Shown one piece after another: positions 7,943 to 39,385 of a stretch of DNA of 40,392 bases (positions within the stretch are counted from its first letter, which is position 1; each line of letters opens with the position of its first letter). The notes beneath the pieces are model-generated. The model was given only the letters and a program-made list of their open reading frames with translations, had not been told where the DNA came from and did no database searches. The translations under genes and the position numbers were made by a program. This stretch comes from Massilia sp. (GTDB lineage Bacteria; Pseudomonadota; Gammaproteobacteria; Burkholderiales; Burkholderiaceae_D), in NCBI GenBank assembly GCA_028292765.1, contig JAQGLR010000515.1:1-40392 (forward strand). Direction: 5' to 3'.

Positions 7943-8365
7943 ATGAAGCGCCTCTCTCGTCCATCGCGGCTCCTTGCTGCGGCGATCACCCTCTTCAGCA
8001 TCCTGTTCATGCAGCTTGCTGTGGCGGCCTACGCCTGCCCCGCGCTGAGCCTGGGGCACGGCAGCGCGGTTGCCAGCACATTCGCGCCCATGTCGGCCTA
8101 CATGCCGCCAGACGAGATGCCGGCCTGCCACGCGATGGACCCGGTGCAGCCCAGCCTTTGTGACGCCTACCACCAGGCGGACAGCCAATCGCTCGACAAG
8201 CCGGCGGTGCCGCCGCTGGCGCCCTTCCTGGCCGTTGGCTTCGGGTTGCCGCTGCGGCCGCTGGACCTCGTTTATCGACCAGACTTCACCTCCGCTAATC
8301 CTCCCTTCCTGGCGCGAACGACGGCGCCGCCCCTGGCAATCCGCCACTGCTGTTTCCGTATCTGA
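7943..8365 (+). CDS. Small secreted Cys/Met-containing protein of the copper-efflux locus (hypothetical)
   Basis: Signal peptide MKRLSRPSRLLAAAITLFSILFMQLAVAAYAC; CHAMDPVQPSLCDAYHQADSQSLDKP; C-terminal TTAPPLAIRHCCFRI; directly upstream of the OMF gene. Confidence 0.75.
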   Translation: MKRLSRPSRLLAAAITLFSILFMQLAVAAYACPALSLGHGSAVASTFAPMSAYMPPDEMPACHAMDPVQPSLCDAYHQADSQSLDKPAVPPLAPFLAVGFGLPLRPLDLVYRPDFTSANPPFLARTTAPPLAIRHCCFRI

Positions 8366-8440
8366 TCCTCCTGCTTGCCCGGTCTGTCGTCGCTGTGCCT
8401 GGTGCATTGGCGATGTTGTGCATTGCATTGTGGAGGATCC

Positions 8441-9775
8441 ATGTTTATCCCATACACCGCGCCCGTGCTGGCGCGTCATCGCGCCTGCCGAGGCGGCGCA
8501 CGGTTCGTGCTCGCCTCATTTTTCGCCGCATTGTGCGGTGGTGCTGCCGCGCTTGAGAATCCGCTGACACTGCAGGAGGCGCAGCTGCGCGCGGTAGAAC
8601 GCTCCCGTCTCCTGGCCGCGAAGGACCATGCCGTCCACGCATCGCGAGAACAGGCGGTCGCCGCCGCGCGCCTGCCCGACCCGGTCCTGAAGCTTGGCGT
8701 CGACAACCTACCGGTCGAAGGACCGGACCGGTTCAGCACCACGCGCGATTTCATGACCCAGCGCCGCATCGGCCTCATGCAGGACCTGACGCGCGCCGAC
8801 AAGCGGCGCTTGCGCGCAGAGCGCTTTGAACGCGAAGCCGACAAGACGTCGGCGGAAAAGACCGCGGCCGCCGCCGCGATCGAGCGCGACACGGCGATGG
8901 CCTGGCTGGACCGCTATTATTTTGAGGCGATGGCAGGGCTGGTCGCCGAACAGGAACAGCAGGCGAGCCTGGAGGTCGCGGCGGCCGAGGCTGCATACCG
9001 TGGCGGACGCGGCGCACAAGCCGACGTCTTCGCCGCCGGCGTCGAGGCGCTTGCCCTGGCTGACCGCTCCCGCGAGCTGGGACGGCGCGTCGCCAACGCC
9101 AAACTGGCGCTCGCGCGCTGGATCGGCGAGGCGGCGCAACTCCCCCTCGCAGGCAAGCCGGTGCTTGACGCCGTCCCGCTCGAACCCGGGACACTGGAGA
9201 CCCAGCTCGGCCATCACCCCGAGATCGCCGTGTTGCGAAAGCAGGAAGACATCGCCGCAACCGAAGCAGCGCTTGCGCGAGCCGACAAAAAGGCGGACTG
9301 GAGCGTCGAAGTCGCGTTCCAGCAGCGCGGGCACGCGTACTCGAACATGCTGTCTGTCGGCGTGTCCGTTCCCTTGCAGTGGAATCAAGGTAACCGGCAG
9401 GACAGGGAGGTATCGGCACGGCTGGCACAGCTCGAACAGGCGCAGGCCGAAAGCGAGGACGCTCTGCGCGCGCACGTAGCCGAGGTGGGGGCCATGCTCA
9501 ACGAGTGGCGGGACAACCGGGAGCGCCAGGCGCGACTCGAGCAGGACCTGCTTCCGCTGGCACGCTCACGGACCACGTCGGCCGTCGCGCATTACCGCGG
9601 CGGCAAGATGTCGCTCGCCGACGTCCTCGCTGCACGCAGGGGGGAACTCGATGCGCGTTTGCAGGTGCTGCAGCTGGAGGCGGACACTGCCCGTCTCTGG
9701 GCGCAGCTCCGGTTCCTGGTCCCGGCAAGCGGACAACGCGATGCGAACCAAGGTATGGACAGGAGGCAGCAATGA
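8441..9775 (+). CDS. TolC family outer membrane factor (CusC-like)
   Basis: Outer membrane factor with long coiled-coil repeats; first gene of an OMF-MFP-RND set; RBS GGAGG before ATG 8441. Confidence 0.88.
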   Translation: MFIPYTAPVLARHRACRGGARFVLASFFAALCGGAAALENPLTLQEAQLRAVERSRLLAAKDHAVHASREQAVAAARLPDPVLKLGVDNLPVEGPDRFSTTRDFMTQRRIGLMQDLTRADKRRLRAERFEREADKTSAEKTAAAAAIERDTAMAWLDRYYFEAMAGLVAEQEQQASLEVAAAEAAYRGGRGAQADVFAAGVEALALADRSRELGRRVANAKLALARWIGEAAQLPLAGKPVLDAVPLEPGTLETQLGHHPEIAVLRKQEDIAATEAALARADKKADWSVEVAFQQRGHAYSNMLSVGVSVPLQWNQGNRQDREVSARLAQLEQAQAESEDALRAHVAEVGAMLNEWRDNRERQARLEQDLLPLARSRTTSAVAHYRGGKMSLADVLAARRGELDARLQVLQLEADTARLWAQLRFLVPASGQRDANQGMDRRQQ

Positions 9776-11301
9776 ACCGGAAAACCATGGCGATTGCCCT
9801 GCTTGCGGCGCTCGCCGCCGGGGCAGGTGGGTATGGCGCCTATCGGCTTGGGATGAACAAGGGAATGGAAGCCGCGACCGGCGCGCCCGATCCCGCGACT
9901 GGAAGGAGGGTGCTGTACTGGCACGACCCGATGGTGCCTGGCCAGAAATTCGACAAGCCAGGCAAGTCGCCTTTCATGGACATGCAACTCGTTCCGGTGT
10001 ACGCCGATGCGCCTGCGGACGAGGGCAAGGTCTCGATCAGTCCGGTGGTGCAACAGAATCTCGGGATGCGCACCGCCGAAGTCACGCGCGGCAAGCTGGC
10101 CATGAGCGTCGAAGCCGTCGGCACCGTCGCCTGGAACGAGCGCGACGTCGCGCTGGTGCAGGCACGCAGCGCCGGCTTCGTCGAGCGGCTGTTCGTGCGG
10201 GCGCCTCTCGATCCGGTGAAGAAGGGCCAGCCGCTGGCGGCCCTGTACGTGCCGGACTGGGTCGCCGCGCAAGAGGAATTCCTGGCGGTGAAGCGCATGT
10301 CCGGGACCGGCCTTGATGGCCTGTTGGATGGCGCCCGCCAGCGCATGCGCCTTGCAGGCATGAGCGACGACCAGATTCGGGCTGTCGACTCCGGCGGGAA
10401 GGTGCAGCCGCGTGTGACGATCAACGCCCCGGTCGGCGGCGTCGTGTCGGAGCTGTCGGTACGGGAGGGAATGACGGTCGCCGTCGGCGCACCGATGTTC
10501 CGGATCAACGGGCTGAGTACCGTCTGGGTCAACGCGGAAGTGCCGGAAGCGGCCGCGGCGCAGGTGCGCCCCGGCACCCTCGTGGAAGCGCGCACCCCAT
10601 CCTCGCCCGGCACCGTGCTGAAAGGCCGGGTCAGCGCGATCCTGCCGGAAGTCGATCCGGCAACGCGAACCCTGCGCGCGCGGATCGAACTGGAGAATCC
10701 GGGGCAGCGGCTCGTGCCGGGCATGTTCACGACCGTGCGCTTCACGCCAGCCGCGGGCGCGGACAGGCTGCTGGTACCGACCGAAGCAGTCATCCAGACG
10801 GGGCAGCGCAGCGTCGTGATGGTGGCGCTCGGAGAGGGCAAGTTCGCGCCGGTGGAGGTCGAACCTGGCAGCGAGAGCGGCGGCAAGACCGAGATCCGCG
10901 GTGGACTCGAGGCAGGGCAGGAAGTGGTGGTTTCCGGCCAGTTCCTGATCGATTCGGAAGCAAGCCTGCGCGGAACCGCGACTCGCCTGGCCGAGCCCCC
11001 GCAGGCCAGGCAAGTCCCGCCGGCCGCACAGCCGCGGCCGGCCGATGCGGGCGCCACACGCCACCGCGGCGAAGGCAAGGTCGAGAGCGTCGACAAGGAC
11101 GAAATCGTCGTCTCGCACGGGCCGATTCCAAGCCTGCAATGGCCACCGATGACGATGGGTTTCAAACTGCCCGCCAGCGGATTGCCGGGCAAGTTCGCTG
11201 TCGGAGACTCGGTGACCTTCGAGTTCCGGCAAAGCGGTGAGGGCGAATACGAGATCATCAACATCACCCGGACGCCCGGGGAGAAGAAAGGGCGGAAATG
11301 A
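9772..11301 (+). CDS. cusB: Efflux RND periplasmic adaptor, CusB-like, with N-terminal heavy-metal-binding domain and C-terminal CusF-like domain
   Basis: [33 protein letters not shown] near N-terminus; MFP core; C-terminal [35 protein letters not shown]...[11 protein letters not shown] (CusF-type). Confidence 0.92.
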
Positions 11302-14300
11302 TCGCCCGACTGATCCGGTGGTCGATCGCCAACCGCTTCCTGGTGCTGCTGGCTACGGTGGCCATGACCGCATGGGGCATCTGGTCCCTCCAGCGCACGC
11401 CGCTCGACGCGCTTCCCGACCTGTCCGACGTGCAGGTGATCATCCGCACGACCTGGCCGGGCCAGGCTCCGCAGATCGTCGAGAACCAGGTGACGTATCC
11501 GCTGACGACCACGATGCTGTCGGTTCCCGGGGCGAAGACCGTGCGCGGCTATTCGTTCTTCGGCGACTCCTTCGTCTACATCCTGTTCGAGGACGGGACC
11601 GATCCGTACTGGGCGCGTTCGCGGGTACTGGAATACCTGAACCAGGTCCAGGCGCGCCTGCCGGCCCAGGCGAAGACCGCCCTCGGGCCGGATGCCAGCG
11701 GCGTCGGCTGGATCTATGAATACGCGCTGGTCGACCGCAGCGGCAAGATGGACCTGTCGCAGTTGCGCGCTCTCCAGGACTGGTTCCTCAAGTACGAGCT
11801 GAAAACGGTTCCCAACGTCGCGGAAGTGGCCAGCCTGGGCGGCATGGTGCGCCAGTACCAGATCGTGCTCGATCCTGACCGGCTGCGCGCCTATGGCATC
11901 CCGCACGGCGCGGTGATCGAGGCGGTGCAGAAGGCGAACCAGGAGACCGGAGGCTCGGTGCTGGAGCTTGGCGAAGCGGAGTACATGGTGCGCGCAAGCG
12001 GGTACCTGGGAACGCTCGACGACTTCCGCAAGATACCCTTGACGGCCTCCCAGGCTGGCGTACCGGTGCGGCTTGGGGACGTCGCGCGCATCCAGATGGG
12101 GCCGGAAATGCGGCGTGGGATCGCGGAACTGAACGGGGAAGGGGAGGTGGCCGGCGGCGTGATCGTCATGCGTTCCGGGAAGAACGCGCTCGAGACCATC
12201 CAGGCTGTCAAGGTGAAGCTCGCAGCGCTGAAGGCCAGCCTGCCGGCGGGTGTCGAGATCGTGCCGACCTACGACCGGTCAGGCCTGATCGAGCGGGCCG
12301 TCGACAACCTGCGCACCAGGCTGGTCGAGGAATTCGTGGTGGTGGCGGTGGTGTGCGGCATTTTCCTGTTCCACCTGCGCTCGGCACTTGTGGCCATCGT
12401 CACCCTGCCGATTGGCATCCTGGCCTCCTTTATCGTCATGCAGCACCAGGGCGTGAACGCCAACATCATGTCGCTCGGCGGCATCGCCATCGCGGTGGGG
12501 GCGATGGTCGATGCGGCGGTCGTGATGATCGAGAACGCGCACAAGCATATCGAGGCATGGAACCACCAGCACCCCGGGGCGACGCTCGATGGCGAGAAGC
12601 GGTGGCAGGTGATCGGCGACGCCGCCGCCGAGGTCGGGCCGGCGCTGTTCTTCTCGCTGCTGATCATCGTGCTGTCGTTCATCCCGGTGTTCACGCTGGA
12701 GGCGCAGGAAGGGCGGCTGTTCGCGCCGCTGGCGTTCACCAAGACCTATGCCATGGCAGCCGCGGCCGGCCTGGCGGTCACGCTGATTCCGGTGCTGATG
12801 GGTTACCTGATCCGTGGCCGGATTCCCGAAGAACGCGCGAATCCTTTGAACCGCTTCCTGATCGCGCTGTACCGGCCGCTGCTCGAGCGGGTACTGCGTT
12901 TTCCGAAGGCGACGCTGCTCGTGGCCGGGCTGGTCGTCGCGATCACCCTGTGGCCGCTGGCGCGCCTGGGCGGCGAATTCATGCCGCCGCTGGACGAAGG
13001 CGACCTGCTGTACATGCCCTCCGCGCTGCCGGGCTTGTCAAGCGGCAAGGTGTCGCAGTTGCTGCAGCAGACCGACCGCCTGATCAAGACGGTGCCGGAG
13101 GTCCAGTCCGTGTTCGGCAAGGCCGGCCGCGCCGAAACGGCCACCGATCCCGCGCCGCTCGAGATGTTCGAGACGACGATCCAGTTCAAGCCGCGCGACC
13201 AATGGCGGCCCGGCATGACGCCGGAAAAGCTGGTCGAGGAACTGGACCGGGTGGTCAAGGTCCCCGGCCTGTCGAACATCTGGGTGCCGCCGATCCGCAA
13301 CCGCATCGACATGCTCGCGACCGGCATCAAGAGCCCGGTGGGCATCAAGGTGGCCGGCACCAGCCTGGCGGAGATCGACCGCATCGCAGGCGAGATCGAG
13401 CGCATCGTGAAGGATGTGCCAGGGGTGTCGTCCGCGCTCGCGGAGCGCCTGCGCGGCGGGCGCTACATCGATGTCGACATCGATCGCGGCGCGGCCGCAC
13501 GCTATGGGCTGAATATCGCGGACGTGCAAAGCGTGGTCTCGGCGGCGATCGGCGGCGACAACATCGGCGAGACGGTCGAAGGCCTGCAGCGCTTCCCCAT
13601 CAACGTGCGCTACCCGCGCGAGTTCCGCGATTCCCTGGAGCGGCTGCGCCAGCTGCCGGTGCTGACCGCGCGCGGGGCCCGGATCCGCCTGGGAGACGTG
13701 GCGTCGATCCGCATCAGCGACGGTCCCCCGATGCTGCGCAGCGAGAATGCGCGCTTGTCGGGGTGGGTCTATGTCGACATCCGCGGGCGCGACATGCATG
13801 CGGTGGTGCGCGACATGCAACAGGCAGTCGCGCGTAAAGTAGCGCTGCCGGCGGGATATGCGGTGTCCTGGTCCGGCCAGTTCGAGTACCTGGAGCGCGC
13901 CAGCGAGAGGCTCCAGGTCGTGGTGCCGGCGACGCTCCTGATCATCTTCGTGCTGCTGTACATGACCTTCAAACGTGCCGACGAGGCAGTCCTGATCATG
14001 GCGACGCTGCCGTTCGCGCTGGCCGGCGGCGTGTGGCTGCTGTGGCTGCTGGGGCACCACGTGTCGGTCGCCAGCGCGGTCGGCTTCATCGCGCTCGCTG
14101 GCGTCGCGGCCGAGTTCGGGGTGATCATGCTGCTGTACCTGAAGCACGCATGGGAAGCGCGCCAGCGCCGCGGCGTCGCGTCCGAGGCAGATTTGCTGGA
14201 CGCGATCCGCGAGGGTGCCGTACTGCGGGTGCGCCCGAAGGCCATGACCGTCGCCGTGATCATCGCCGGCCTGGTGCCGATCGTCGTGGGCGGCGGCACG

Positions 14301-14471
14301 GGTTCCGAGATCATGCAGCGTATCGCCGCACCCATGGTTGGCGGCATGATCACGGCGCCGCTTTTATCGATGTTCGTCGTGCCCGCGGCGTACTTGCTGA
14401 TGCGGCGGCGCGAGCTGCATGCGGCCAGGCGTGAAGCATCTGTACAGCCGGCCACCTGCGATGAGGCCTGA
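11298..14471 (+). CDS. cusA: CusA/CzcA family heavy metal efflux RND transporter, Cu/Ag (HME4) type
   Basis: 1057 aa; [25 protein letters not shown] (TMH4); [47 protein letters not shown] overlap with adaptor gene. Confidence 0.95.
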
Positions 14472-14481
14472 TTTTGCCAGG

Positions 14482-14516
14482 CCGGCCGCTGCGCGTGCAT
14501 AATGCGCAGCGGCCGG
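14482..14516 (+). terminator. Strong hairpin downstream of cusA (possible terminator/attenuator)
   Basis: CCGGCCGCTGCGC-GTGCATAAT-GCGCAGCGGCCGG, perfect 13-bp stem, 9-nt loop; only short T tract (TTT) follows. Confidence 0.55.
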
Positions 14517-14554
14517 TTTGCCCTGCCGGGTAACTCAACTCAAACACGATAAGT

Positions 14555-15247
14555 ATGCAATCAGCCTTCTGGGTGCGACGCGCCCACAAATGGATCGGGC
14601 TGGTCATCGGGGTACAGGCGCTGCTCTGGATGATCAGCGGCCTGTACATGGTCGTCGTTCCGCTCGAGGTCATCCACGGCGACCACCTGGCGCATGTGCC
14701 CACCGAAGCACTCAAACCCGCCGGCAGCCGCATCACGCAAGCGCGCCTGCACGCGCTTTACCCCGGCATTACCGCCTTTCGCATGAAGAGCCTGCTTGGA
14801 AAGGAGGCTTACGAAATCAAGCAAGGACATCGGACCACCCTGGTGGATGCGGCGGACGGCGGGAAAATGAGTCCGCTCGGCCGGGAGGATATCGTCGCGC
14901 TGGCAGACGCGGCCTATGTCGGCGAAGGCAGCATCCGCGGCGTGGAGTGGGTCACCAAGGCACCTCAGGAAGTCGGCGCACGGCCAGTGCCCCTGTGGGC
15001 GGTCCATTACGACGAGCCAGGCAAGACGACTCTGTACTTTTCGCCCTTTACCGGTGAGCTCGTGGCGCGGCGTCATGAACTCTGGAGGTGGTTCGATTTC
15101 CTGTGGATGTTCCACATCATGGACTACGAAGAGCGCGAGGACGTGAACAACACGCTCCTGCGCGTGGCGTCGATCTCCGGGCTGGCGTTCGCGCTGAGCG
15201 GAGCCTGGCTGCTCTTCTACAGTGTCAAGCGAAGGAAACAGGCATGA
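14555..15247 (+). CDS. PepSY domain-containing membrane protein
   Basis: MQSAFWVRRAHKWIGLVIGVQALLWMISGLYM...FDFLWMFHIMDYEEREDVNNTLLRVASISGLAFALSGAWLLF; PepSY_TM-like topology; paralogous to N-terminal part of next ORF. Confidence 0.82.
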   Translation: MQSAFWVRRAHKWIGLVIGVQALLWMISGLYMVVVPLEVIHGDHLAHVPTEALKPAGSRITQARLHALYPGITAFRMKSLLGKEAYEIKQGHRTTLVDAADGGKMSPLGREDIVALADAAYVGEGSIRGVEWVTKAPQEVGARPVPLWAVHYDEPGKTTLYFSPFTGELVARRHELWRWFDFLWMFHIMDYEEREDVNNTLLRVASISGLAFALSGAWLLFYSVKRRKQA

Positions 15248-17046
15248 GCCACTGGATGCGGCGACTTCACAAGTGGGCAGGACTCATCCTGGCGATCCAG
15301 TTCGTGTTGTGGATGTCCAGCGGGGTCATGATGAGCCTGCTCGACGCGGACAAAGTGGCTGGACGCGAGTTTCGTGTCAAGCCGCCGGTGCCGCCGGCAT
15401 GGCCGCGCGATGTCCTGAGCACGGACGCGGTGCTGGCCGCCACAAAAGAAAGCATCATGACCATCAGTTCCGGCTGGCTGCTCGACCAGCCTGTTTACCG
15501 GCTCCAGAACGGCGAGCGCAGCTGGCTTGTCCGCGCAAGCGATGCCACCGCCGTTATGGTCGACGCGCAGCTCGCCGCAAGGATCGCACGGGCGTCTTAC
15601 TCCGGCCCCGGTAAAGCCGGTTCCCCGCGCCTGCAGGAATCCACGCTGGAGACGCGCAACCACAAGGAGCCGGCCTGGCGCATCGACTTCGACGATGCCG
15701 ACGAGACGTCGGTCTACGTATCGAGCAGGTCGGGCGCCGTGCTCGAACACAGGAACAGTACCTGGCGCCTGTTCGACCTGTTCTGGATGCTCCACATCAT
15801 GGACTACAGCGAGCGGACAAACTTCAACAATCCTTTGTTGGTCTCGAGCGCGATCGGCGGCTTATGGATGGCATTGACGGGCGTCTGGCTGCTGTTCGTC
15901 AGCGTCCGTCTGGCGGAATTCGTCCCCAGCCGCTGGCGTCGGAGCCGCACCGTCAACCTGGTCGACACCAGCGGGAGGCGGCAGCGTTCGGTCGATGTCG
16001 TACAGGGCGACACGGTATTCCAGGCGCTGGCCCGCTCCGGCCTGCAGCTGCCCTCGAATTGCGGCGGCGGACAAAGCTGCGGACTATGCGAGGTCAGATG
16101 CGTCGGGAATGTACCGGAACCGACAAGTGCCGACCGCGCGCTGCTGTCGCCGTCCAAACTCGAGGCGGGTTACCGGCTGGCCTGCAACCTGCCCGTGAAG
16201 CGCAGTCTCGACATCGACGTCGGGGACGCCACGGCCCTGGCCGCCGAGCGGGCAGGGGTCGTCACAAGCGTCAAGCCCTTGTCGCCCTTCCTGCGCGAGA
16301 TAACGGTGCGCCCGAACGCACCAGTCGCGTGTCGTCCAGGCGCATACGTCCAGGTCCATGTTCCGGCGTATGAGCGCGATGCCAGCGACCTCGAGATTCC
16401 CGAGGACCATCATGAGGACTGGCGGACTGCGGGGACGCTCGCAGCGCTCGCGAACGATGCGCCGGTACGCCGGTCGTATTCGGTGGCAGTGCCGCTCGAA
16501 CGCCGCGACGGGCAACTGACTTTCCTGGTCCGCTTCATTCCCGGCCCAAGGCCGGGCAGGGGATCCGGCTACATGTACACGCTGAAGGCCGGCGACGAGC
16601 TGCGCTTCAGCGGTCCGTTCGGTGATTTCGCCCTGAAGACGGGAACACGTGAAAAGGTGTTCATCGGTGGCGGCGCCGGCATGGCGCCGTTGCGCGCAAT
16701 GATCCACGAGTTGCTGGCAAAGGGCGCTATAGAGCCAATCCACTTCTGGTACGGCGCGCGCAGCCGCCGCGATGCGCCTTATGTGGAAGAGATGCGCGAC
16801 TTTGCGTCGAAGTACCCGAACTTCCACTGGCACCTGGTGCTGTCGGAAGCGGCAGGCGAGGGTAACGCGCGGTCCCGATTTGTCCATGAAGCGGTGCTGG
16901 AGGGCCTGTTGCGCACGCACTCGGATATTTCGTCGCTTGAGTTTTATGTTTGCGGCCCGCCGGCGATGCTATCGGCAACTCGTCAGATGTTACGGGCATT
17001 GGGCGTGGAAGACGCGCAGGTGGCATACGACGACTTCAAGATTTAA
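15244..17046 (+). CDS. PepSY-TM / [2Fe-2S] ferredoxin / FNR-type (NqrF-like) NAD(P)H reductase fusion
   Basis: N-term MSHWMRRLHKWAGLILAIQFVLWMSSGVMM...FDLFWMLHIMDYSERTNFNNPLL; middle LPSNCGGGQSCGLCEVRCVGNV...GYRLACN (plant-type 2Fe-2S ligands); C-term RRSYSVAVPLE, VFIGGGAGMAPLRAMIHELL, HFWYGARSRRDAPYVEEM, FYVCGPPAML. Confidence 0.9.
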   Translation: MSHWMRRLHKWAGLILAIQFVLWMSSGVMMSLLDADKVAGREFRVKPPVPPAWPRDVLSTDAVLAATKESIMTISSGWLLDQPVYRLQNGERSWLVRASDATAVMVDAQLAARIARASYSGPGKAGSPRLQESTLETRNHKEPAWRIDFDDADETSVYVSSRSGAVLEHRNSTWRLFDLFWMLHIMDYSERTNFNNPLLVSSAIGGLWMALTGVWLLFVSVRLAEFVPSRWRRSRTVNLVDTSGRRQRSVDVVQGDTVFQALARSGLQLPSNCGGGQSCGLCEVRCVGNVPEPTSADRALLSPSKLEAGYRLACNLPVKRSLDIDVGDATALAAERAGVVTSVKPLSPFLREITVRPNAPVACRPGAYVQVHVPAYERDASDLEIPEDHHEDWRTAGTLAALANDAPVRRSYSVAVPLERRDGQLTFLVRFIPGPRPGRGSGYMYTLKAGDELRFSGPFGDFALKTGTREKVFIGGGAGMAPLRAMIHELLAKGAIEPIHFWYGARSRRDAPYVEEMRDFASKYPNFHWHLVLSEAAGEGNARSRFVHEAVLEGLLRTHSDISSLEFYVCGPPAMLSATRQMLRALGVEDAQVAYDDFKI

Positions 17047-17102: not shown

Positions 17103-17642
17103 ATGCCCGCCGCCCGGATAATGAGCTTCATGTTGGATTCACCAGGAAGCCCCATGAAGCATTTATTGTCGACCATCCGTCACTCGGAGGGCAAGCACAA
17201 GCTTTACGATGTGACCGTCGTATCGGCAAGCGGTGGTCTGGTCGCGACGAGTGCTGGCTTGGAAGTGATGACGCAGCCGCTATCGGCGCTGGACGACATT
17301 GCCCTCGATACCGTGATCGTGGCAGGCGGCTGTGCCGGCGAAGAGTATTACGCGCCTCGCGAGTTGGCTGACTGGATTGCGCGTCGCGCGCCGCAGGTTC
17401 GGCGCCTGTACTCCGTCTGCACCGGTGCATTCCTTCTGGCAGCTGCAGGCCAGCTGAATGGACGTCGGGTCTCTACCCACTGGGCTTGGGCGGACCGGCT
17501 GCGCCGACTGAATCCCGATGTCGAGGTGGATCATGACAAGATTTTCGTTCGCGACGACTTGCGGCGCGTGTTCCAGCGACAAATCGGGATTACTCCTGGA
17601 GAGTACCGCAGCCGCTTTTCCACACATGCTACTCCGAAATAG
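17103..17642 (+). pseudogene. GlxA/DJ-1-type AraC family regulator with internal deletion of most of the HTH domain
   Basis: YDVTVVSASGGLVATSAGLEVMTQPL...VCTGAFLLAAAGQLNGRRVSTHWAWADRLRRLNPDVEVDHDKIFVRDD then directly LRRVFQRQIGITPGEYRSRFS, the extreme C-terminus of an AraC domain. Confidence 0.7.
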
Positions 17643-18502: not shown

Positions 18503-21500
18503 TCAAAACGCGTCGCTACCTTTGTCCGCCAGCAGCCGCTCCAGCGGGCGACGCCCGACTTTCCAGAAGATGAGCGGCGTGAGCAGCGAATCGAGCAGGG
18601 TAGAACTGATCAGCCCGCCGAAGATGACGACCGCGACCGGATGCAGGATTTCCTTGCCCGGTGCGTCGGCGGCCAGCAGCAGCGGCGTCAGTGCAAAAGC
18701 GGCAACCAGCGCCGTCATCAGGACCGGCGTCAGGCGCTCGATCGAGCCGCGCACGATCATCGGCCATCCAAAAGTCTCGCCCTCGAACTTGCAGAGGTTG
18801 ATGTAATGGCTCACCTTGAGAATGCCGTTGCGGGTCGCGATACCCGCCAGGGTAATGAAACCGACCATCGAAGCCACCGACAGCGATACCCCGGCGATCC
18901 ACATGGCGACCACGCTGCCGACCAGCGCGAAGGGAATATTGCCCATGATGACGAGCGCCAGCGTCCCCGACCGGTAGCGCGAGTACAGCACCAGGAAGAT
19001 CAGCACCAGCGACGCCAGCGACAGGCCGACGATCAGCTGCTGCGACTGTTCCTGGGCCTGGAACTGGCCTTCGACGCTGACGAAATAACCGCCCGGGAGC
19101 GCGCCGGCGGCGACCGTCTTGCGCACGTCCTCGATAATCCGGGACATGTTCGAGCCGTCGGTATTCGCGTACACGACGATGCGGCGGCGCCCGTTCTCGC
19201 GGCCGATCTGGTTGGGGCCGTCGCCTTCTTCGACCGTCGCGACGCTTGATAACGGGATCTGGCCGGCCGGGCTGGCGAGCATCACGCGCGCCAGGTCCTG
19301 GGGTGTGCGGTCAACGTCGGCCAGGCGCACGACCAGGTCGAACCGGCGCGGGCCGTCGATGACCTGCGTCACTCGCGTGCCTTCGGCCAGCGCCTGCAGC
19401 GCCTGCAGCACGTCGCCCGCAGCCAGGCCATACTGCGCGGCCTTGCGGTAGTCGATGCGCACCTTGACCTGCGGGATCAGGACCTGGCGCTCGACCGACA
19501 GGTCGACCAGGCCCGGCACGGAGCGCAGGCGCCCCTGCAGGCCGTCGGCCAGGCCGCGCAGGGTGTCGAGGTCGTCGCCATAGATCTTCAGGGCGATCTG
19601 CGCGCGGACGCCGGAGAGCAGGTGGTCGAGCCGGTGCGAGATCGGCTGGCCGATGGCGACCGAGGCCGGGATCACGGAGAGCTGGCTGCGGATGCTTGCC
19701 ATGATCTCCTCGCGGCTTCGCTCGGAGGGTTTGAGGTCGATGTCGATCTCGGACGAGTGCACGCCTTCGGCATGTTCGTCCAGTTCGGCGCGGCCAGTGC
19801 GGCGCCCAACCCTGGTCACTTCCGGCACCTGGGCGATCAGGGTTTCGGCCAGGGACCCCATGCGGTTGGCTTCCACCAGTGAGGTGCCGGGCGTGAAGAT
19901 CATGCCCATCACCAGCGAACCCTCGTTGAAAGCCGGCAGGAAGGCGCGCGGAAAGAAGGGCACGGAGGCCGCAGCCGCCACCACCACGATCAGGGCGCTT
20001 GCCAGAAGCAGGCGCACGCGCGAGAACGACCAGTTCAGTACGGCGGTATCCCATTGTTTCATGCGACGCACGATGGGGCTGTCGCCGCGGTGCAGGCGCT
20101 TCATCTTCGGCAGCAGGTAGTAGGCCAGGGCCGGGGTGACGGTCATCGACACCAGCATCGAGGCCAGAATCGAGGCAATATAGGCAATGCCCAGCGGCGC
20201 GAACAGGCGGCCTTCGATGCCCGGCAGGGCAAACAGCGGCACGAACACCAGCACCACGATCACGGTGGCGTAGACGATGCCCGAGCGCACTTCCACCGAG
20301 GCGTGCCAGATGGTTTCCAGCACCGACTGGCCGGTATCGCCGCGCTGCTTCAACCTGCGCACGATATTTTCGACGTCCACCACGGCATCGTCGACCAGTT
20401 CGCCGATCGCGATCGCCAGGCCGCCGAGCGTCATCACGTTGATCGACTGGCCGAGCAGGTGGAAAGCGAGCGCCGTTACCGCCAGCGACAGCGGGATCGC
20501 GATCAGCGAGATCAGCGTAGTGCGCACGCTGAGCAGGAAGGCGAACAGCACGATGGCGACCAGGATGGCGCCGTCGCGCAGGGCCTCGACGACGTTGCCG
20601 ATCGAGTTGTCGATGAAGTTCGCCTGCCTGAACAGGACCACGGGTGGGGAAATGCCTGCCGGGAGCCCCTGTTTCAGTTCCGCCAGCGCGGTCTCGATGT
20701 CGTGCGTCAGGCGCACCGTGTCGCCAGCGGGCTGCTTTTGCACGCTGACGATCACCGCCGGCTTGCCGTTCAGGCCGGCGTCGCCGCGCTTGAAGGCCGG
20801 GGCGTAGGTGACGCCCGCGACTTGTTCGAGCAGGACGGGGGCGCCGTTCCGGTAGGCCACCGCCAGCCCCTGGATGTCTTCCAGGCGATTCGTGCGGCCC
20901 AGGTTACGGATCAGGTATTCGCGATTGTTCAGGTCGACGAAGCCGCCGCTGGTATTGGCCGCAAATCCGCGCAGCGCCGTGGTCACCTGTTCGAGCGAGA
21001 CGCCGAACTGGGCCATGCGCGCCGTATCCGGCTCGACGCGCAGTTGGCGCACCTCGCCGCCGATCGGGATCACCTGCGACACGCCCGGGATCGACAAGAG
21101 GCGCGGGCGAAGCACGAAGTCTGCATACTCGCGCGCCTTCATCGGGTCGGTCCGGGCGACGTCGATCGGCAGTGCGATCAGCATGATCTCGCCCATGATC
21201 GAGGACACCGGCCCCATCACCGGCGCTATGTTCCCCGGCAGTTGTTCCTTGACCAGCGTGATCCGCTCGGACACGAGCTGCCGGTTGCGGTAGATGTCGG
21301 TGCCCCAGTCGAATTCGGCATACACGATCGACAGGCCGACGCCCGAGACCGAGCGCACCCGTGTCACGCCGGGCATGCCGTTGAGCGAAGTCTCGATCGG
21401 GAAGGACACCAACTGCTCGACTTCTTCAGGTGCCATGCCGCCGGCCTCGGTCAGCACGGTCACGACCGGCTTGTTCAGGTCGGGAAAGACGTCGACCGGG

Positions 21501-21601
21501 GTGCGCCATGCGGTCATGGCGCCCCAGATCATCAGCAGCAGCGCCGCCGCCAGGACGAACAGGCGGTTGTGCAGGCTGAAACGAACGATAGAATTGAACA
21601 T
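18503..21601 (-). CDS. CusA/CzcA family heavy metal efflux RND transporter, distinct (HME5-like) class
   Basis: 1032 aa RND; TMH4 motif [26 protein letters not shown] differs from both other RNDs in the window; [22 protein letters not shown]. Confidence 0.92.
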
Positions 21602-21621
21602 GGGCGGGTTACCTGATCTGC

Positions 21622-22764
21622 TTATCTAATTTGGTTAATCAGGGAGGTACCGACGACCACGACCCTGTTGTCGGGGCTGAGCCCCCTGGTGACGATGACG
21701 GTGCCCGCATCCAGTGCCGTGGCCTCCACGGGCAGCGCAATGAAGCGCTGGGTCCCGGATTTGATCCACACCACCGTTTCATTGGCGGGGTTCCGCGCCA
21801 GCGCCGCAGCCGGCAGGGCAATGCCCTTGACCCTGGTGTCGAGCTTCGCCAGGACGGTCACCGGCTGGCCAACTGCCAGGTCGAGGGCACGGTTGGGTCC
21901 CTGAGCGCGCGCACGGAAGTTGATCGGCACCGCGCCATCGCGCAGCGTGCGCCCGCCGCCGAGCAGGGTCAGCTCGACATCCGGCACGTCAACGAGGCTT
22001 GCTGCGCTGATCTTGCGGGCGACACCTGCGTCCGTGGACAGGGCCTCGATCACCATGCGCTGCGGATCGACAATCTCGAACAGCACGTCGCGCGATTCGA
22101 CGATCTGGCCGTTCAGCACCGACGCGCTGGCAATGACGCCGCTGCTGGGTGCAACGATCGCCTCGACGCCGCTGATCGAACCGGCAACTGCGCGCTCCTG
22201 GCCGAGGGTGCTGGCCAGTTCCGCCTGGGCGGCTTCGATTTCCTTGGCCGGCACTACGCCTTCGAGCGATTTCAACCGCTGCACCCGCTTGGCCAGCAGG
22301 GCCCGGTTGGCGCGCAATTCGGCGAGTTGCGCTGCCTGGTTGCCGCGCTCGATAGCCGCGCCCGTCGGGCGCAGGCGTGCCAGCACCTGGCCCTTGACCA
22401 CGCGCTGGCCAGCGACCGGCAGGCCCTTTGGCCCCGGCGCGATTTGCCCGGCGAAGGGGGCCTGCACGCGTCCACCCGCATTCGGGTCGATGGCGACGCG
22501 GCCGTTCAGGGCCACGGTGCGTGCATGCTCGCCTTCCTTGACCATCAGCGTGCGCACGCCTATGCGGCGTTGGGCCAGCTTGGGGACCTGGACGCTGCCA
22601 TCGGGCAGGCGCGCCAGGCCGCCCGTGGTGGCAGTCGCCTGGCCATCGAGGTGCTCGCCATTCGGACCATGGGCGCCGGGCGAGGCGAGCAGGGAAGTGG
22701 CGAACGTGGCAGCGGCAAGACCGGCAACAATTTGTTGGATCATTCTCTGTTGTGGCTTCTTCAT
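21622..22764 (-). CDS. Efflux RND transporter periplasmic adaptor
   Basis: MFP family with barrel-sandwich core [33 protein letters not shown]-terminal [19 protein letters not shown] motif; adjacent to RND. Confidence 0.9.
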
Positions 22765-22765
22765 A

Positions 22766-23320
22766 TCAGGCTTTCTTGGGTTGACGGCGGCGGCGCGCGA
22801 CAAATACTGCGGCAGCAGCGAGCACGGCGCCAGCCAGGCCGGCCAGCGCCCAGCGGCTCGCTCCGGGCCCGTGACCGTGATCGTCGGCCGCTTCGGCGAC
22901 CGTCAGCGTGCCTTCGAGCAGATCGCTCTCTTCACCGGCGACCAGCGTGAACAGCAGGGCATGGGTGCCCGGTGTCGAGATGGCAGCGAGGAACGTCGGA
23001 TCGTCGACCGCGTAGTCGCCGAGGTCGGCGTGGAACCTGGCCTTGGCCTTCAAATCCTTGTACTGGACTTCCAGGTCGCCCCCCAGCACCGGCTCATTGG
23101 TCTCGTAGCGGTCGATCATGATCGAGAGTTCGCCGCCGGAGAGGTGCCCGAGCAGTTCGAACGCTTCGGTGAAGGTCTCGATGCGGGGGACGGACGCGGT
23201 GGCGCCGGTGGCGGTGGTTTGGCCGTCGAGGTGTTCGCCGTTGGGCCCGTGGGCGCCGGGGCTGGCGAAGGCGGCCGGCATGGCGAGCATGGCGGCGAAG
23301 AACAGGTTCAGGTATTTCAT
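22766..23320 (-). CDS. Hypothetical periplasmic protein with C-terminal TM anchor, part of the RND operon
   Basis: Signal peptide; [19 protein letters not shown] motif shared with adaptor; C-terminal DDHGHGPGASRWALAGLAGAVLAAAAVFVARRRRQPKKA. Confidence 0.8.
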   Translation of the reverse strand: MKYLNLFFAAMLAMPAAFASPGAHGPNGEHLDGQTTATGATASVPRIETFTEAFELLGHLSGGELSIMIDRYETNEPVLGGDLEVQYKDLKAKARFHADLGDYAVDDPTFLAAISTPGTHALLFTLVAGEESDLLEGTLTVAEAADDHGHGPGASRWALAGLAGAVLAAAAVFVARRRRQPKKA

Positions 23321-24555
23321 GGAAGGATTCCTAATGCTTGGTTGAGCAGGGCATGTGCGTGCCCGAGTGCGACTTTTTGCTGGGCTACGGCGACGTCGGC
23401 CTCGTGCGTCAGCGCACGCGAACGCAGCAGTTCGGCAAGCCCCCGCTCGCCGGCCCGGAATGCCTTTTCGAACAGCGCGGTGTGTTCGTGCAGGGCGGCG
23501 GCGCGCTCAAGGGCGGTGTCCAGGGCGGCCCGCGCATTCGCAAGCCGCTGCTGAGCGGTGTCGATGTCGGCCCCGGCATTGGCCTGCACCTCGGCCGCTT
23601 CAGCCGCCGCGGTCGCGATTACGGTCCGGGCCTGCGCTTCCACCGTGCGGTTGCGCGCGGCAGTGCCGATCGGGATCTGGAGTGCCACGCCGATGCTGTT
23701 GACGGGCTCGCGCAGGAGGCGTTCGTCCTCGCGGCGCACCGAGACGGCAATCGTCGGTGGCGCCGAGCGGTTGGCCGCTGCAAGGCGCAGGGCGGCGCGT
23801 GCCCGCTCCTCGGAGGCCTGCGCTGCCGCCAGCCGGGGATCGATGGGCGCGGCGGTATCGTGCAGCGGTTCGGGTTCCAGCGCCGGCAGGGTTGGGAGGC
23901 CGGTCGCGACGCGGTAGCGTGCCAGCGCTTCGGCCGCTGCGGTGCGGGCATTCGTTACCTCGATGCGGGCGGCCAGCACTTCCTGCTGTGCGAGCAGGCC
24001 GTCGCTGCGTGCCAGGTCGCCGGCCTTGACACGCCGCTGGACCTCGTCAGACAGTCCTTCCAGATGATGCAGGTGGTCTTGCTTCTCTTCCAGCCTGACC
24101 TGGGCGGCGGCCGCTTCCCACATGCTGTTGCGCACCATGCCGGCCACGGCCAGGCGGGTGGCGCCGAGATGGGCGGTCACTTCGTCGCTACTGCGCGCGG
24201 CGAGCGCTTCGCGGGCACTCTTCTGGCCGGGGAGCCAGATCGAGGACGAGACCGAGATCTCGGATTCGCGCTGGTCGCGCTCGGACGCCCCGCGGTCGGC
24301 GCGCCGGGACAGGCCGAGCGCCGGACTGGCAGCAAACCAGGACCGGGCATTTGCGCGCGCGGCGGAGACTTCATCCTGGCGTGCTTCGATGGTACGGGCG
24401 GCGGGTGCCCTTTGCCACGCACTCTCGACGGCTTGTTTCAGTGAGGGGCCGACCGGGGTCGGCGTAGCCGGTGCTGCGCGGACCAGGCATGGCAGGGTCA
24501 GGGCGGCACCGATAAGGTACAGGTACAGGTACAGGGACAGGCGGCAGGTGCGCAT
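23317..24555 (-). CDS. TolC family outer membrane factor
   Basis: OMF-type coiled-coil sequence (e.g. VGVALQIPIGTAARNRTVEAQ); first gene of OMF-(22766)-MFP-RND operon; overlaps next gene. Confidence 0.88.
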   Translation of the reverse strand: MRTCRLSLYLYLYLIGAALTLPCLVRAAPATPTPVGPSLKQAVESAWQRAPAARTIEARQDEVSAARANARSWFAASPALGLSRRADRGASERDQRESEISVSSSIWLPGQKSAREALAARSSDEVTAHLGATRLAVAGMVRNSMWEAAAAQVRLEEKQDHLHHLEGLSDEVQRRVKAGDLARSDGLLAQQEVLAARIEVTNARTAAAEALARYRVATGLPTLPALEPEPLHDTAAPIDPRLAAAQASEERARAALRLAAANRSAPPTIAVSVRREDERLLREPVNSIGVALQIPIGTAARNRTVEAQARTVIATAAAEAAEVQANAGADIDTAQQRLANARAALDTALERAAALHEHTALFEKAFRAGERGLAELLRSRALTHEADVAVAQQKVALGHAHALLNQALGILP

Positions 24556-24632
24556 GTGTTCTCCAGCGGTGATATTGGGAATCACCGGGGGCGAGCACAC
24601 CGGCGCGAACGAGTCGCGCCTCCATCTTTCGA

Positions 24633-33613: not shown

Positions 33614-33691
33614 CGCGCAGGCCTTCGAATGGCGAGCCGGCCGGCTCGCATGCTCCTGCGCGCCTGACCGATGTTTTTTTCAGGAGCACAA

Positions 33692-34984
33692 ATGATTATC
33701 CAACCCAAGCGTCTGCCGACGCTGGTCGCCCTATCCATTGTGGCCTGGTGCTGCGGCGTGGCTGCGCAGCCCCTGGGCAGCATGGCGCCGGGCACCTCTG
33801 CGCCCATCGACTTGCCGGCCGCGATCCGGCTCGCCCTCGAGCAGCCCGGGCTGCGCGCAGCGGCTCACGAAGTCGCCGCGAGCGAAGCAGCCGCCGACCA
33901 GGCGGGCAAGTATCCGAATCCCGAGCTGGAATATCTGCGCGAGGGCCACCGCGCCGGCACACGGACCACCACCGTCCAGATCAAGCAGCCGATCGAGCTC
34001 GGCGGCAAACGGCGCGCACGGGTCGCGCTCGCCGAAGGGGCTGTGGCCCTGGCGCGTACCGAACATGAGGCACGGCGCCAGCAGATCCGCGCCGACGTCA
34101 TCGCCGGTTATTACGCCGTCCTGGTTGCACAGGAAAGGCAGCAGCTGGCACGCTCGCTCATCGAACTGGCCCGCAGGGGTGTGGACGCCGCCAGCAAGCG
34201 CGTCGCGGCCGGGAAGATCTCGCCGATCGACGAGACGAAAGCGCGGCTTGCAGCGAGCGATGCCTCGGTCGAGCTGAACGGGGCCACCGGCGAGCTTGCC
34301 ATCGCGAGGACAAAGCTCGGCGCGCTGATCGGCAAACCGGCGCAATTGTTCACGCTGGCGGCGCAGTACCCGGAGCAGCTTCCCGCGGTGAAGCCGCTCG
34401 CGACATTGCTCGCCGACGTAGGCGAATCGGCCGCCGTGCAGCGCGCACGCCGGCAACTCGCCGCCCAGGTAGCGCAGACGGACGTCGAACGCGCGGTCCG
34501 GATTCCCGATGTGACGATCTCGATCGGCAGTCAACGCGACGACGAGGTTCAGCGCCGGCAGGCGGTGGTCGGCCTGTCGGTGCCGCTTCCGCTGTTCAAC
34601 CGTAACCAGGGCAGCCTCAGCGCGGCGCTGCGTCGGGCCGACAAGGCGCAAGACGAGCTGGCGGCCGTCCAGGTAACGGCCGCGTCGGAATTGGCGGGCG
34701 CATACACCCGGTACGAAGTTGCAAGGGGCGAGGTCGCGCTGCTGCGCCAGGACGTGCTTCCGAACGCCCAATCCGCGTACGAGCTGACCCTGAAGGGCTT
34801 CGAATACGGGAAGTTCCCGTTCCTTGACGTCCTCGATGCGCAGCGCACCTTGTTCCAGTCCCAGTCCCGCTATTGGAAAGCGCTGCTCGAGGCCTGGCGC
34901 GGCTTTGCCGACATCGAGCGCCTGGCAGGCCATGCCAATACAACAGAGCAAAACAGATTAACCGAGCCGGGATCACATCCATGA
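33692..34984 (+). CDS. czcC: TolC family outer membrane factor, CzcC-like
   Basis: OMF sequence (e.g. YPNPELEYLREGHRAGTRTTTVQIKQPIELGGKRRAR); first gene of czcCBA. Confidence 0.92.
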   Translation: MIIQPKRLPTLVALSIVAWCCGVAAQPLGSMAPGTSAPIDLPAAIRLALEQPGLRAAAHEVAASEAAADQAGKYPNPELEYLREGHRAGTRTTTVQIKQPIELGGKRRARVALAEGAVALARTEHEARRQQIRADVIAGYYAVLVAQERQQLARSLIELARRGVDAASKRVAAGKISPIDETKARLAASDASVELNGATGELAIARTKLGALIGKPAQLFTLAAQYPEQLPAVKPLATLLADVGESAAVQRARRQLAAQVAQTDVERAVRIPDVTISIGSQRDDEVQRRQAVVGLSVPLPLFNRNQGSLSAALRRADKAQDELAAVQVTAASELAGAYTRYEVARGEVALLRQDVLPNAQSAYELTLKGFEYGKFPFLDVLDAQRTLFQSQSRYWKALLEAWRGFADIERLAGHANTTEQNRLTEPGSHP

Positions 34985-36231
34985 CCAGGAAACAGACATC
35001 ACTGATCGCGCTGATGTGCGTGATTGCCGCCGTGCTTGCCGCCCTGATGCTGTGGCGCGAGCCGGCCAGACCTGGTGGGCAGGGGCACGAAGCGGGCCAT
35101 GAAGCGGGCCACGTACGCCATGCGGATTCGCACGGCCATGACGACCGCCACGAGGAAGCGGAAGGGGAATCGGATGAAGGGAAAGCCGAAGCCGTACGGG
35201 AACCCGGCGTCGCGATGACCGAGGCGCAGATCAAGGCCAACGGGATCGCCATCGACACCGCCGGGCCGGCGACGATCCAGGAGCGATTGCATTTGCCCGC
35301 ACAGGTCAAGGTCAATGCCGAGCGGACCGTCGCGCTCGCATCGCCTGCCGACGGTATCGTGCAGTCGGTGCCGGTGTCGGTCGGTACGCCCGTCAGGAAA
35401 GGACAGTCCCTCGTCGTCATCCAGAGCCCATCGGTGGCGCAGTGGCGGGCCGAATACGGCAGTGCCCAGCAGCGACTGAAGCTGGCGAGGACGAGCTGGC
35501 AGCGCGAGAAGTCCCTGTGGGACGAGCGCATCTCTGCACGCCAGGACCTGGATGCCGCGCAAAGCGCGCTGGGGGAGGCCGAGATCAACGCCCAGGCCGC
35601 AGGGCAGCGCTTGAGCGCCCTCGGGATTGCGGCGGTGGAAGGCAAGGGGGCGTCGAGCAGCGTGACTGTCCGCGCACCCCTTGGCGGCGTCGTGGTCGAC
35701 AAGCCCGCGGTCGCCGGCCAGGCAGTCGACGCAAGCAAACCCCTGCTCACAATCGCCGATCTGTCGCAGGTCTGGGTCGAAGCGGCGGTGCCGGCGGACA
35801 GCCTGGCACAGGTTGGCACCGGTATGCCGGCCCAGGTCAGCGTCAATGCAATGCCGAAACAGCTCAGCGGCACGGTGTCGTTCGTCGGACCCATTCTCGG
35901 CGAGGCGACACGCATGGCCACGGCCAGGGTAACGCTGCCCAACCCCGGACTGCGTTTGCGGCCGGGCATGCTGGCAACCGTCGACCTCCTGGGGCAGCAG
36001 GCAAGCATACCGGTGACAGTCGCAAACGACGCCATCCAGACCATCCATGAGCGCAGCGTGGTGTTCGTCCGGACCAGCGCCGGCTTCCGGCCCACGAGCG
36101 TGACGGTGGGCCGCTCGGACGGGAAACGGAGCGAGATCGTCAACGGCCTGGCGCCTGGCGTGAAATACGCGGCCAGCGGCAGTTTCCTGCTCAAGGCGGA
36201 CCTCGGCAAATCCGAAGCTGAACACCACTGA
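34981..36231 (+). CDS. czcB: Efflux RND periplasmic adaptor, CzcB-like
   Basis: N-terminal His/Asp/Glu-rich GHEAGHEAGHVRHADSHGHDDRHEEAEGE; MFP core; overlaps czcC stop by ATGA. Confidence 0.93.
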   Translation: MTRKQTSLIALMCVIAAVLAALMLWREPARPGGQGHEAGHEAGHVRHADSHGHDDRHEEAEGESDEGKAEAVREPGVAMTEAQIKANGIAIDTAGPATIQERLHLPAQVKVNAERTVALASPADGIVQSVPVSVGTPVRKGQSLVVIQSPSVAQWRAEYGSAQQRLKLARTSWQREKSLWDERISARQDLDAAQSALGEAEINAQAAGQRLSALGIAAVEGKGASSSVTVRAPLGGVVVDKPAVAGQAVDASKPLLTIADLSQVWVEAAVPADSLAQVGTGMPAQVSVNAMPKQLSGTVSFVGPILGEATRMATARVTLPNPGLRLRPGMLATVDLLGQQASIPVTVANDAIQTIHERSVVFVRTSAGFRPTSVTVGRSDGKRSEIVNGLAPGVKYAASGSFLLKADLGKSEAEHH

Positions 36232-36241
36232 TCGGGCAGAC

Positions 36242-39200: not shown

Positions 39201-39385
39201 CTTCCCTGGGATTCCTGCCGATGGCATTGGCGACGAGTACGGGAGCCGAGGTTCAGCGGCCCCTGGCTACCGTCGTCATCGGCGGGATCCTGTCGTCGAC
39301 GGCGCTGACGCTGTTGATTTTGCCAGCGTTGTACACATGGGCTCACCACGACAAAAAGCGCCTGCGATCGGGGGAAGTCCAATGA
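36242..39385 (+). CDS. czcA: CzcA-type heavy metal efflux RND transporter (HME1/2 class)
   Basis: TMH4 LGALDFGIIIDGAVVIVENCIRRL; YSPLEVEQRITFPIETVMNGLPGLEQTRSLSRYGLSQVTVVFEDGTDIYFARQLVSERLQ. Confidence 0.95.
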   Translation: MFQKLIELAIARRWLVIFVAACLGASGLYSYGRLPIDAVPDITNVQVQINTGAEAYSPLEVEQRITFPIETVMNGLPGLEQTRSLSRYGLSQVTVVFEDGTDIYFARQLVSERLQQAKARLPANVEPSMGPTATGLGEIFYWTVETKEGARKPDGSLYTPADLREIQDWIVAPQLRSVAGVTEVNTIGGYLKEYQVAPDMARLSAHGLSLATLVNAIDRNNANAGAGYIERGGEQFVVRTPGQVKSLEEIGNIVLDVVEGAPVRVRDVADVQLGRELRTGAATENGREVVLGAVFMLIGENSRAVAEAARLKLEEVNRSLPAGVQALPVYDRSVLVNKAIDTVRTNLVEGALLVIAILFLFLGNLRAALITALVIPLSMLMVFTGMVNAGVSANLMSLGALDFGIIIDGAVVIVENCIRRLGLAQKAAGRLLSREERFAELAAAAAETRRPLLFGQLIIMTVYLPIFALSGVEGKMFHPMAITVVMALVAAMILSVTFVPAAVAIFVSKGVTEHENKLMHKARDLYQPVLDWVLRNRPVALAFAAVSVLLSGMLATRLGTEFAPNLNEGDLAVLTMRIPGTSLQQSVAMQQHLEGTLLKQFPEIERMFARVGTSEVATDPMPPNAADSYIMLRPQDQWPAPRKSHAELVEAITVAANRVPGNNYEFSQPIQLRFNELISGVRSDIAVKVFGDDTEAMTATAQQIAQVMGKLPGAAEVKVEQTEGLPALTLTVDRIKAARYGLNVADVQEAFGTLVGGRDVGMVFEGDRRFAITVRLPEGPRNDIESLRQLPISLPAQDGHSASIPLSEIATLSFVPEANQISRENGKRRVVVTANVRGRDLGSFVTELRTALAAVKLPAGTWLGLGGQFENLQAASQRLGLVVPAALAIVFALLYLMFNSVKDGLLVFSGIPFAMTGGVLALWLRGLPLSISAAVGFIALSGVAVLNGLVMVSFVRSLVEQGHAPEQAMREGAQARLRAVLMTALVASLGFLPMALATSTGAEVQRPLATVVIGGILSSTALTLLILPALYTWAHHDKKRLRSGEVQ

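Follow-up and report, generated by a model that had tools for sequence, protein, structure and literature searches.

FoxB of Pseudomonas aeruginosa is a ferrisiderophore reductase that is reported to hold two hemes by four histidines in a four-helix fold containing two PepSY units (PMC13038864, citing Josts 2021); its PepSY cavities are described as substrate sites (PMC13038864). A second PepSY_TM protein, CrpH of Bordetella pertussis, is encoded behind the TonB-dependent copper importer CrtA; it is proposed to be a periplasmic copper reductase, is linked with respiratory oxidases and is switched on when copper is scarce (PMC13038864, PMC12914433). PepSY_TM domains are also joined to the NAD-binding domain PF00175 in proteins of flavinylation clusters, with NADH the proposed donor; these proteins go with ApbE/DUF2271 and are interpreted as iron systems, and no copper role is described for them there (PMC8238504). 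Here, we describe a gene pair, pep1 and pep2, on a 40,392-nt contig of Massilia sp. (JAQGLR010000515.1, assembly GCA_028292765.1; the window, below). The balance of evidence leans towards the pair being a two-chain, FoxB-like inner-membrane reductase that uses NAD(P)H to convert periplasmic Cu(II) to Cu(I), which then passes to Cus and Cop proteins. It is an uncharacterised relative of the known iron-siderophore reductases, and what is new is the combination of its parts. These are as follows.

14555..15247, forward strand: pep1, encoding a 230-amino-acid half PepSY_TM protein, with the predicted order transmembrane helix 1, periplasmic PepSY domain, transmembrane helix 2.
15244..17046, forward strand: pep2, encoding 600 amino acids from an ATG start in an intact reading frame; PepSY_TM, [2Fe-2S] ferredoxin and NqrF-like FAD/NAD(P)H reductase.
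15259..15915, forward strand: PepSY_TM module of pep2, residues 6-224, with heme-type histidines H9 and H184.
15979..16200, forward strand: [2Fe-2S] domain of pep2, residues 246-319, with cysteines 273, 279, 282 and 314.
16450..16983, forward strand: FAD_binding_6 (403-462) and NAD_binding_1 (473-580) of pep2, from Pfam, NCBIfam and PDB comparison.

A first-pass annotation of the window had read the 600-residue product as a PepSY_TM, ferredoxin and NqrF-like fusion, and as a plausible electron wire across the inner membrane. The Pfam domains and the conserved residues bear out both the fusion and the anatomy of such a wire. PepSY_TM (PF03929; 30.8 bits against a gathering score of 28.8, covering the N-terminal half of the profile only), Fer2, FAD_binding_6 and NAD_binding_1 all exceed their curated cut-offs. 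Among 87 sequences scored for each gene, H9, H184 and the four cluster cysteines of pep2 show little or no variation; the same is true of its FAD motif R410-x-Y412-S413 and its NAD motifs (the G475-P482 region and C570-G571-P572). Since more than 80 full-length homologues exist, this architecture is not a chance join. The C-terminal 350 residues resemble NqrF, subunit F of Na+-NQR, which has the same Fer2, FAD and NAD modules, shares 35-42% identity over the structural alignment and is the nearest solved structure by sequence in the PDB. The best NCBIfam match is likewise nqrF (TIGR01941), but at 275 bits it falls below the cut-off of 295; PepSY_TM stands in place of the NqrF membrane helix, and nqr genes are absent. 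Taking pep2 for a stray NqrF was ruled out on these grounds.

The stand-alone PepSY paralogue noted beside pep2 in the first-pass annotation is pep1, whose stop codon overlaps the pep2 start by 4 nt (ATGA). It too passes the PepSY_TM gathering score (31.5 against 28.8 bits), matching profile positions 1-159 of 295, the N-terminal half only. Its heme-type histidines, H11 (14585-14587) and H187 (15113-15115), are invariant or nearly so. Three further periplasmic histidines are peculiar to pep1: H41 (14675-14677), invariant and set in an IHGDHL motif, H44 (92% conserved) and H174 (97%); together they form a candidate metal site. In a GTDB genome scan that found 402 relatives and kept 80 loci, pep1 and pep2 stand in tandem wherever the stretch spans both, nearly always with the 4-nt ATGA overlap. 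In three distant genomes they are naturally fused into one chain of 843-850 amino acids that includes the NAD(P)H module.

L040, 9063-11591, reverse strand; L120, 9995-12547; L124, 1191-3731: natural pep1-pep2 fusions, each a single reading frame.

Because the genes are tandem, coupled and in three genomes fused, the functional unit is the pair and not, as had been supposed, the 600-residue protein by itself, although the architecture assigned to that protein stands. The single-chain fusions should be useful for structural work.

Each gene encodes half of a FoxB-like reductase. The pair supplies two PepSY/transmembrane halves with four conserved histidines (H11 and H187 of pep1, H9 and H184 of pep2), which could hold two hemes. 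An AlphaFold model of the 850-residue Aliikangiella fusion has a mean pLDDT (predicted local distance difference test) of 84.6 and a pTM (predicted template-modelling score) of 0.54, and its C-terminal part matches NqrF in Foldseek. For the whole fusion the first 50 Foldseek hits are taken up by NqrF-like chains, and the 470-residue two-PepSY part was therefore modelled separately (pLDDT 79.2, pTM 0.69), giving four long helices. Its sole significant match in the PDB is FoxB (7abw; E 7e-6, probability 1.00), at a TM-score of 0.30-0.37; given that low score and the pTM values, the models do not settle how the subunits pack or how the hemes would be placed. MAFFT stacked pep1 and pep2 on one repeat each time a joint alignment was made, so both models use one-sided alignments. 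The models show a fold of the FoxB family, a claim that does not extend to exact packing. FoxB is one chain whose electron donor is unknown, whereas the pair consists of two chains, one of which brings its own ferredoxin-FAD-NAD(P)H module, and sits in a copper setting.

That setting, noted in the first-pass annotation for the window, holds across relatives. With the same protein queries, copper-resistance families were sought around the pair in 74 loci that span 19 kb or more and in 40 random 20-kb stretches from pair-bearing genomes. At least one family occurs within about 10 kb in 61 of the 74 loci, at least two in 50 and at least three in 42, against none of the 40 controls; when the loci are pooled by genus or group, 24 of the 26 show one or more. 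Two loci are present twice (L038/L096 and L039/L077), related species are not independent and some queries were drawn from the same loci; the latter two points mean that a Fisher p-value should not be read literally. By family, the 74 loci yield DUF411 in 43, multicopper oxidase (MCO) in 36, CopB in 30, Cu-ATPase in 27, CusA in 23, CopC and CopD in 18 each, CusB in 16 and cupredoxin in 14. Pair-bearing plasmids are found among Xanthomonas, Massilia and Indioceanicola records, and those with readable genes are rich in copper genes. The link to copper is thus strongly supported. The cus adjacency noted in the first-pass annotation is secondary, and the partner is the whole Cus/Cop/ATPase/MCO/DUF411 set and not Cus alone. 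The abundance of DUF411, the most frequent copper neighbour and known as the CopG oxidoreductase, raises the question of whether the pair delivers electrons to some other periplasmic copper protein, such as this one, in a redox supply or repair role, and not to free copper. Thiol or cluster proteins do require an electron source; however, 31 of the 74 loci have no DUF411 match nearby, and the PepSY cavities of FoxB are described as substrate sites (PMC13038864). We regard this reading as unlikely.

The usual operon is receptor-pep1-pep2. A TonB-dependent receptor of about 900 amino acids lies directly 5′ of pep1 in 68 of 85 scorable loci and in nearly all pair-bearing congeners of the window. 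Coupling to a Cus-type pump, proposed from the window, recurs on about three other branches but is not the rule, and cus adjacency as a general feature was dropped after the survey of more than 80 loci. Outside the window, cus-pep1 joins occur in Hyphomonas johnsonii (with cusF between), in Microbulbifer hainanensis (about 1.4 kb apart) and in a gammaproteobacterial clade; the joins fall on four branches of the pep2 tree, at least three of them forced by well-supported nodes. Compared with the PDB, the receptor gives weak matches to BtuB or siderophore receptors at best. Eight cysteines, four histidines and Met885 of the Massilia arenae receptor (L046, 7184-9892) are nearly invariant across 68 receptors, and may possibly form disulfides and a metal or ligand site. 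On the 3′ side of pep2, loci L232 (15947-21442), L080, L082 and L102 carry an extracytoplasmic function (ECF) sigma factor, FecR, a second TonB receptor and DUF4198, followed by cusABC; the block ahead of cusABC is possibly a second metal uptake unit.

The receptor brings in the main competing explanation, in which it imports a ferric siderophore or chelate and the pair, like FoxB or FpvG, reduces Fe(III). That the receptor shares the operon in most loci speaks for iron, as do the FoxB fold, the ECF sigma factor, FecR and second receptor found 3′ of pep2 on Xanthomonas plasmids, and the general interpretation of PepSY clusters as iron systems (PMC8238504). Yet copper families dominate the recurrent neighbours; no siderophore-biosynthesis or other iron-uptake families were recognised among the identified neighbour clusters; several lineages have a CopL-type leader ahead of the receptor; and the operator found, described below, is HutC-like, a Fur box not having been searched for. 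Homologues lying mostly with iron genes would have spoken against a copper role, and that is not the pattern seen, although the receptor leaves the ligand open. We consider iron improbable, if less so than the other alternatives.

The same receptor-PepSY order recalls CrpH, and the pair might accordingly reduce copper for heme-copper oxidase assembly, serving supply and not detoxification; CrpH is a PepSY_TM protein encoded with a copper TonB receptor, CrtA (PMC13038864, PMC12914433). CrpH is one chain, for which no NAD(P)H module is described in the text consulted, whereas the window has two genes, fused only in L040, L120 and L124. The neighbours of the pair are genes of export and oxidation (CusA, Cu-ATPase, MCO, CopB, DUF411), no oxidase or oxidase-assembly families were recognised among the recurrent clusters, and mobile copper-resistance plasmids carry pairs. 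CrpH is tied to oxidases and copper starvation; the pair lies among resistance genes with a HutC operator. A supply role thus seems to us rather unlikely.

How, then, did the window come to have cusA directly ahead of pep1? The features upstream are the following.

7943..8365, forward strand: leader open reading frame (ORF) before cusC, 140 amino acids, containing Cys, His and Met; CopL-type likeness by eye only, no family match.
8375..9775, forward strand: cusC-type outer-membrane channel ORF, start uncertain; OEP in Pfam.
9505..11301, forward strand: cusB ORF, start uncertain; adaptor with a C-terminal CusF domain in Pfam.
11298..14471, forward strand: cusA, Cu(I)/Ag(I) resistance-nodulation-division (RND) pump; TIGR00914 at 1380 bits, Met triad positions conserved.
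14472..14554, forward strand: cusA-pep1 junction, matching the Massilia arenae receptor-pep1 spacer (L046, 9906 on) from about 14477.

The cusCBA genes named in the first-pass annotation are genuine: besides its TIGR00914 score, CusA keeps, as read off the alignment, M573, M623 and M672 of E. coli CusA, the Met residues that act as Cu(I)/Ag(I) ligands. With CusB and its CusF domain, the genes upstream of pep1 have what a Cus-type Cu(I)/Ag(I) efflux system calls for. In M. arenae, the order ahead of pep1 is cusA, copper oxidase, CopB, receptor. The match to the spacer of that species begins about 6 bases past the cusA stop in the window; taken with the gene order, this implies that cusA and pep1 were joined by deletion or by misassembly. 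The TonB-dependent receptor appears to have been deleted (or misassembled) at this junction, and no close receptor was found elsewhere in the genome assembly (520 contigs, 84.6% complete), the best match being 35%. Since a receptor stands ahead of pep1 in nearly all pair-bearing congeners and the junction looks like its loss, direct linkage to cusCBA is read as derived in the window lineage.

A connection to histidine utilisation, which the first-pass annotation could not have seen, is new. Copper plasmids of Xanthomonas carry the operon CopL-receptor-pep1-pep2 and, running divergently from it, hutC-hutU-hutH-hutG; on an Indioceanicola plasmid, hutC-hutF-hutU-hutH lies downstream of pep2. In 17 loci (from Pseudoxanthomonas, Lysobacter and relatives, Luteimonas and Hyphomonas, plus one unclassified), hut genes are no more than 10 kb away, and none of the controls has them. 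Hut genes adjoin receptor-pep1-pep2 together with hutC in L232 (4940-10408), L233, L235 (11970-17410), L082, L113 and L116, in varying arrangements. The operator search started from a presumed HutC motif. In 44 of 65 loci, the resulting HutC-like word (TTGTATAGACAA) occurs in the 900 bp that precede the receptor, as expected of a HutC regulon in the receptor-type operons of relatives; 57 sites fall in 59.8 kb upstream of receptors, against 17 in 1,333 kb elsewhere, an enrichment of about 75-fold. The published consensus is TGTA-N2-TACA (PMC12977541). An independent check of the HutC reading comes from four Massilia genomes, that of the window included, in each of which the sole exact copy of the word stands directly 5′ of hutU. 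In the window, no HutC operator with up to 2 mismatches was found, and loci whose receptor is replaced by cus or absent have no good HutC-like site before the pair, except that L041 has one near a separate receptor. In L091, L108 and L232, Cys/His-rich CopL-type leader ORFs lie between the HutC-like operator and the receptor, or overlap it, which suggests joint control by copper and histidine.

It could be argued from the hut adjacency, seen in several arrangements, and from the HutC operator that the pair serves histidine or urocanate metabolism and acquired its copper neighbours secondarily. But cus-type pair loci lack the operator and still have copper genes, and loci in Microbulbifer, Massilia and Stenotrophomonas have copper neighbours with no hut neighbours; we think this very unlikely. 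A bolder reading, which we hold less likely than not, is that receptor-pep1-pep2 is a dedicated Cu(II)-histidine system: the receptor would import the complex, the NADH-driven two-chain heme reductase would release its copper as Cu(I), freed histidine would go to Hut under HutC and Cu(I) to the resistance pumps, the window form being reduced to copper detoxification. The hypothesis of histidine as the copper ligand would account for the ties of a single operon to hut genes as well as to copper resistance.

For copper reduction, our preferred reading, we envisage the following route. The cytosolic FAD domain of pep2 would oxidise NAD(P)H and pass electrons through the [2Fe-2S] cluster of pep2 to a cytosol-side heme (H11 of pep1 and H9 of pep2), and from there to a periplasm-side heme (H187 of pep1 and H184 of pep2). 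Cu(II) would be reduced to Cu(I) in the periplasmic PepSY cavity, to which pep1 may contribute its conserved IHGDHL/H174 site. The wire is proposed from the domain anatomy and from FoxB; copper as the acceptor, from the neighbourhoods, the Cu(I)-type pump and the precedent of CrpH. In the common operon, the receptor probably imports copper in chelated form, Cu(II)-histidine being the likeliest candidate; histidine set free by the reduction would go to Hut, and CusCBA/CusF, CopA-type ATPases or copper oxidases would receive the Cu(I). The window, where the receptor is apparently gone, has the pair right behind a Cu(I)-type cusCBA, and there the pair would supply Cu(I) to the pump.

Several points weigh against this scheme. 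The case for copper as substrate comes from context, and the PepSY_TM enzymes with demonstrated substrates reduce iron; receptors like that of the pair operon usually carry a siderophore annotation. Of the 74 loci, 10 have no copper or hut gene within 10 kb, a recognisable operator is missing from 21 of 65 receptor operons, and unrelated genes also gather in copper clusters. The neighbouring copper oxidases catalyse the opposite reaction, and the fold comparison with FoxB scores low.

Elsewhere in the window, the opposite strand at about 25-30 kb encodes CopD, a CopC-like protein, CusF, a DUF411-type CXCC protein and a copper oxidase. Just past pep2, 17103-17642 encodes a DJ-1/PfpI-domain protein that covers just the N-terminal portion of FtrA-type regulators, and is probably a truncated regulator. 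The reverse strand at 18503-24600 holds a second RND set, divergent (31% to CusA) and accompanied by an adaptor and an outer-membrane channel, and a third lies at 33671-39385 on the forward strand.

Cus pumps take Cu(I), and the source of periplasmic Cu(I) under aerobic conditions is not settled; a membrane reductase equipped with an NAD(P)H module would be a concrete candidate. In contrast to FoxB, a donor module is fused on here, so that the heme wire becomes testable. Finally, the HutC operator would link histidine catabolism to copper handling, on the copper-resistance plasmids of Xanthomonas.
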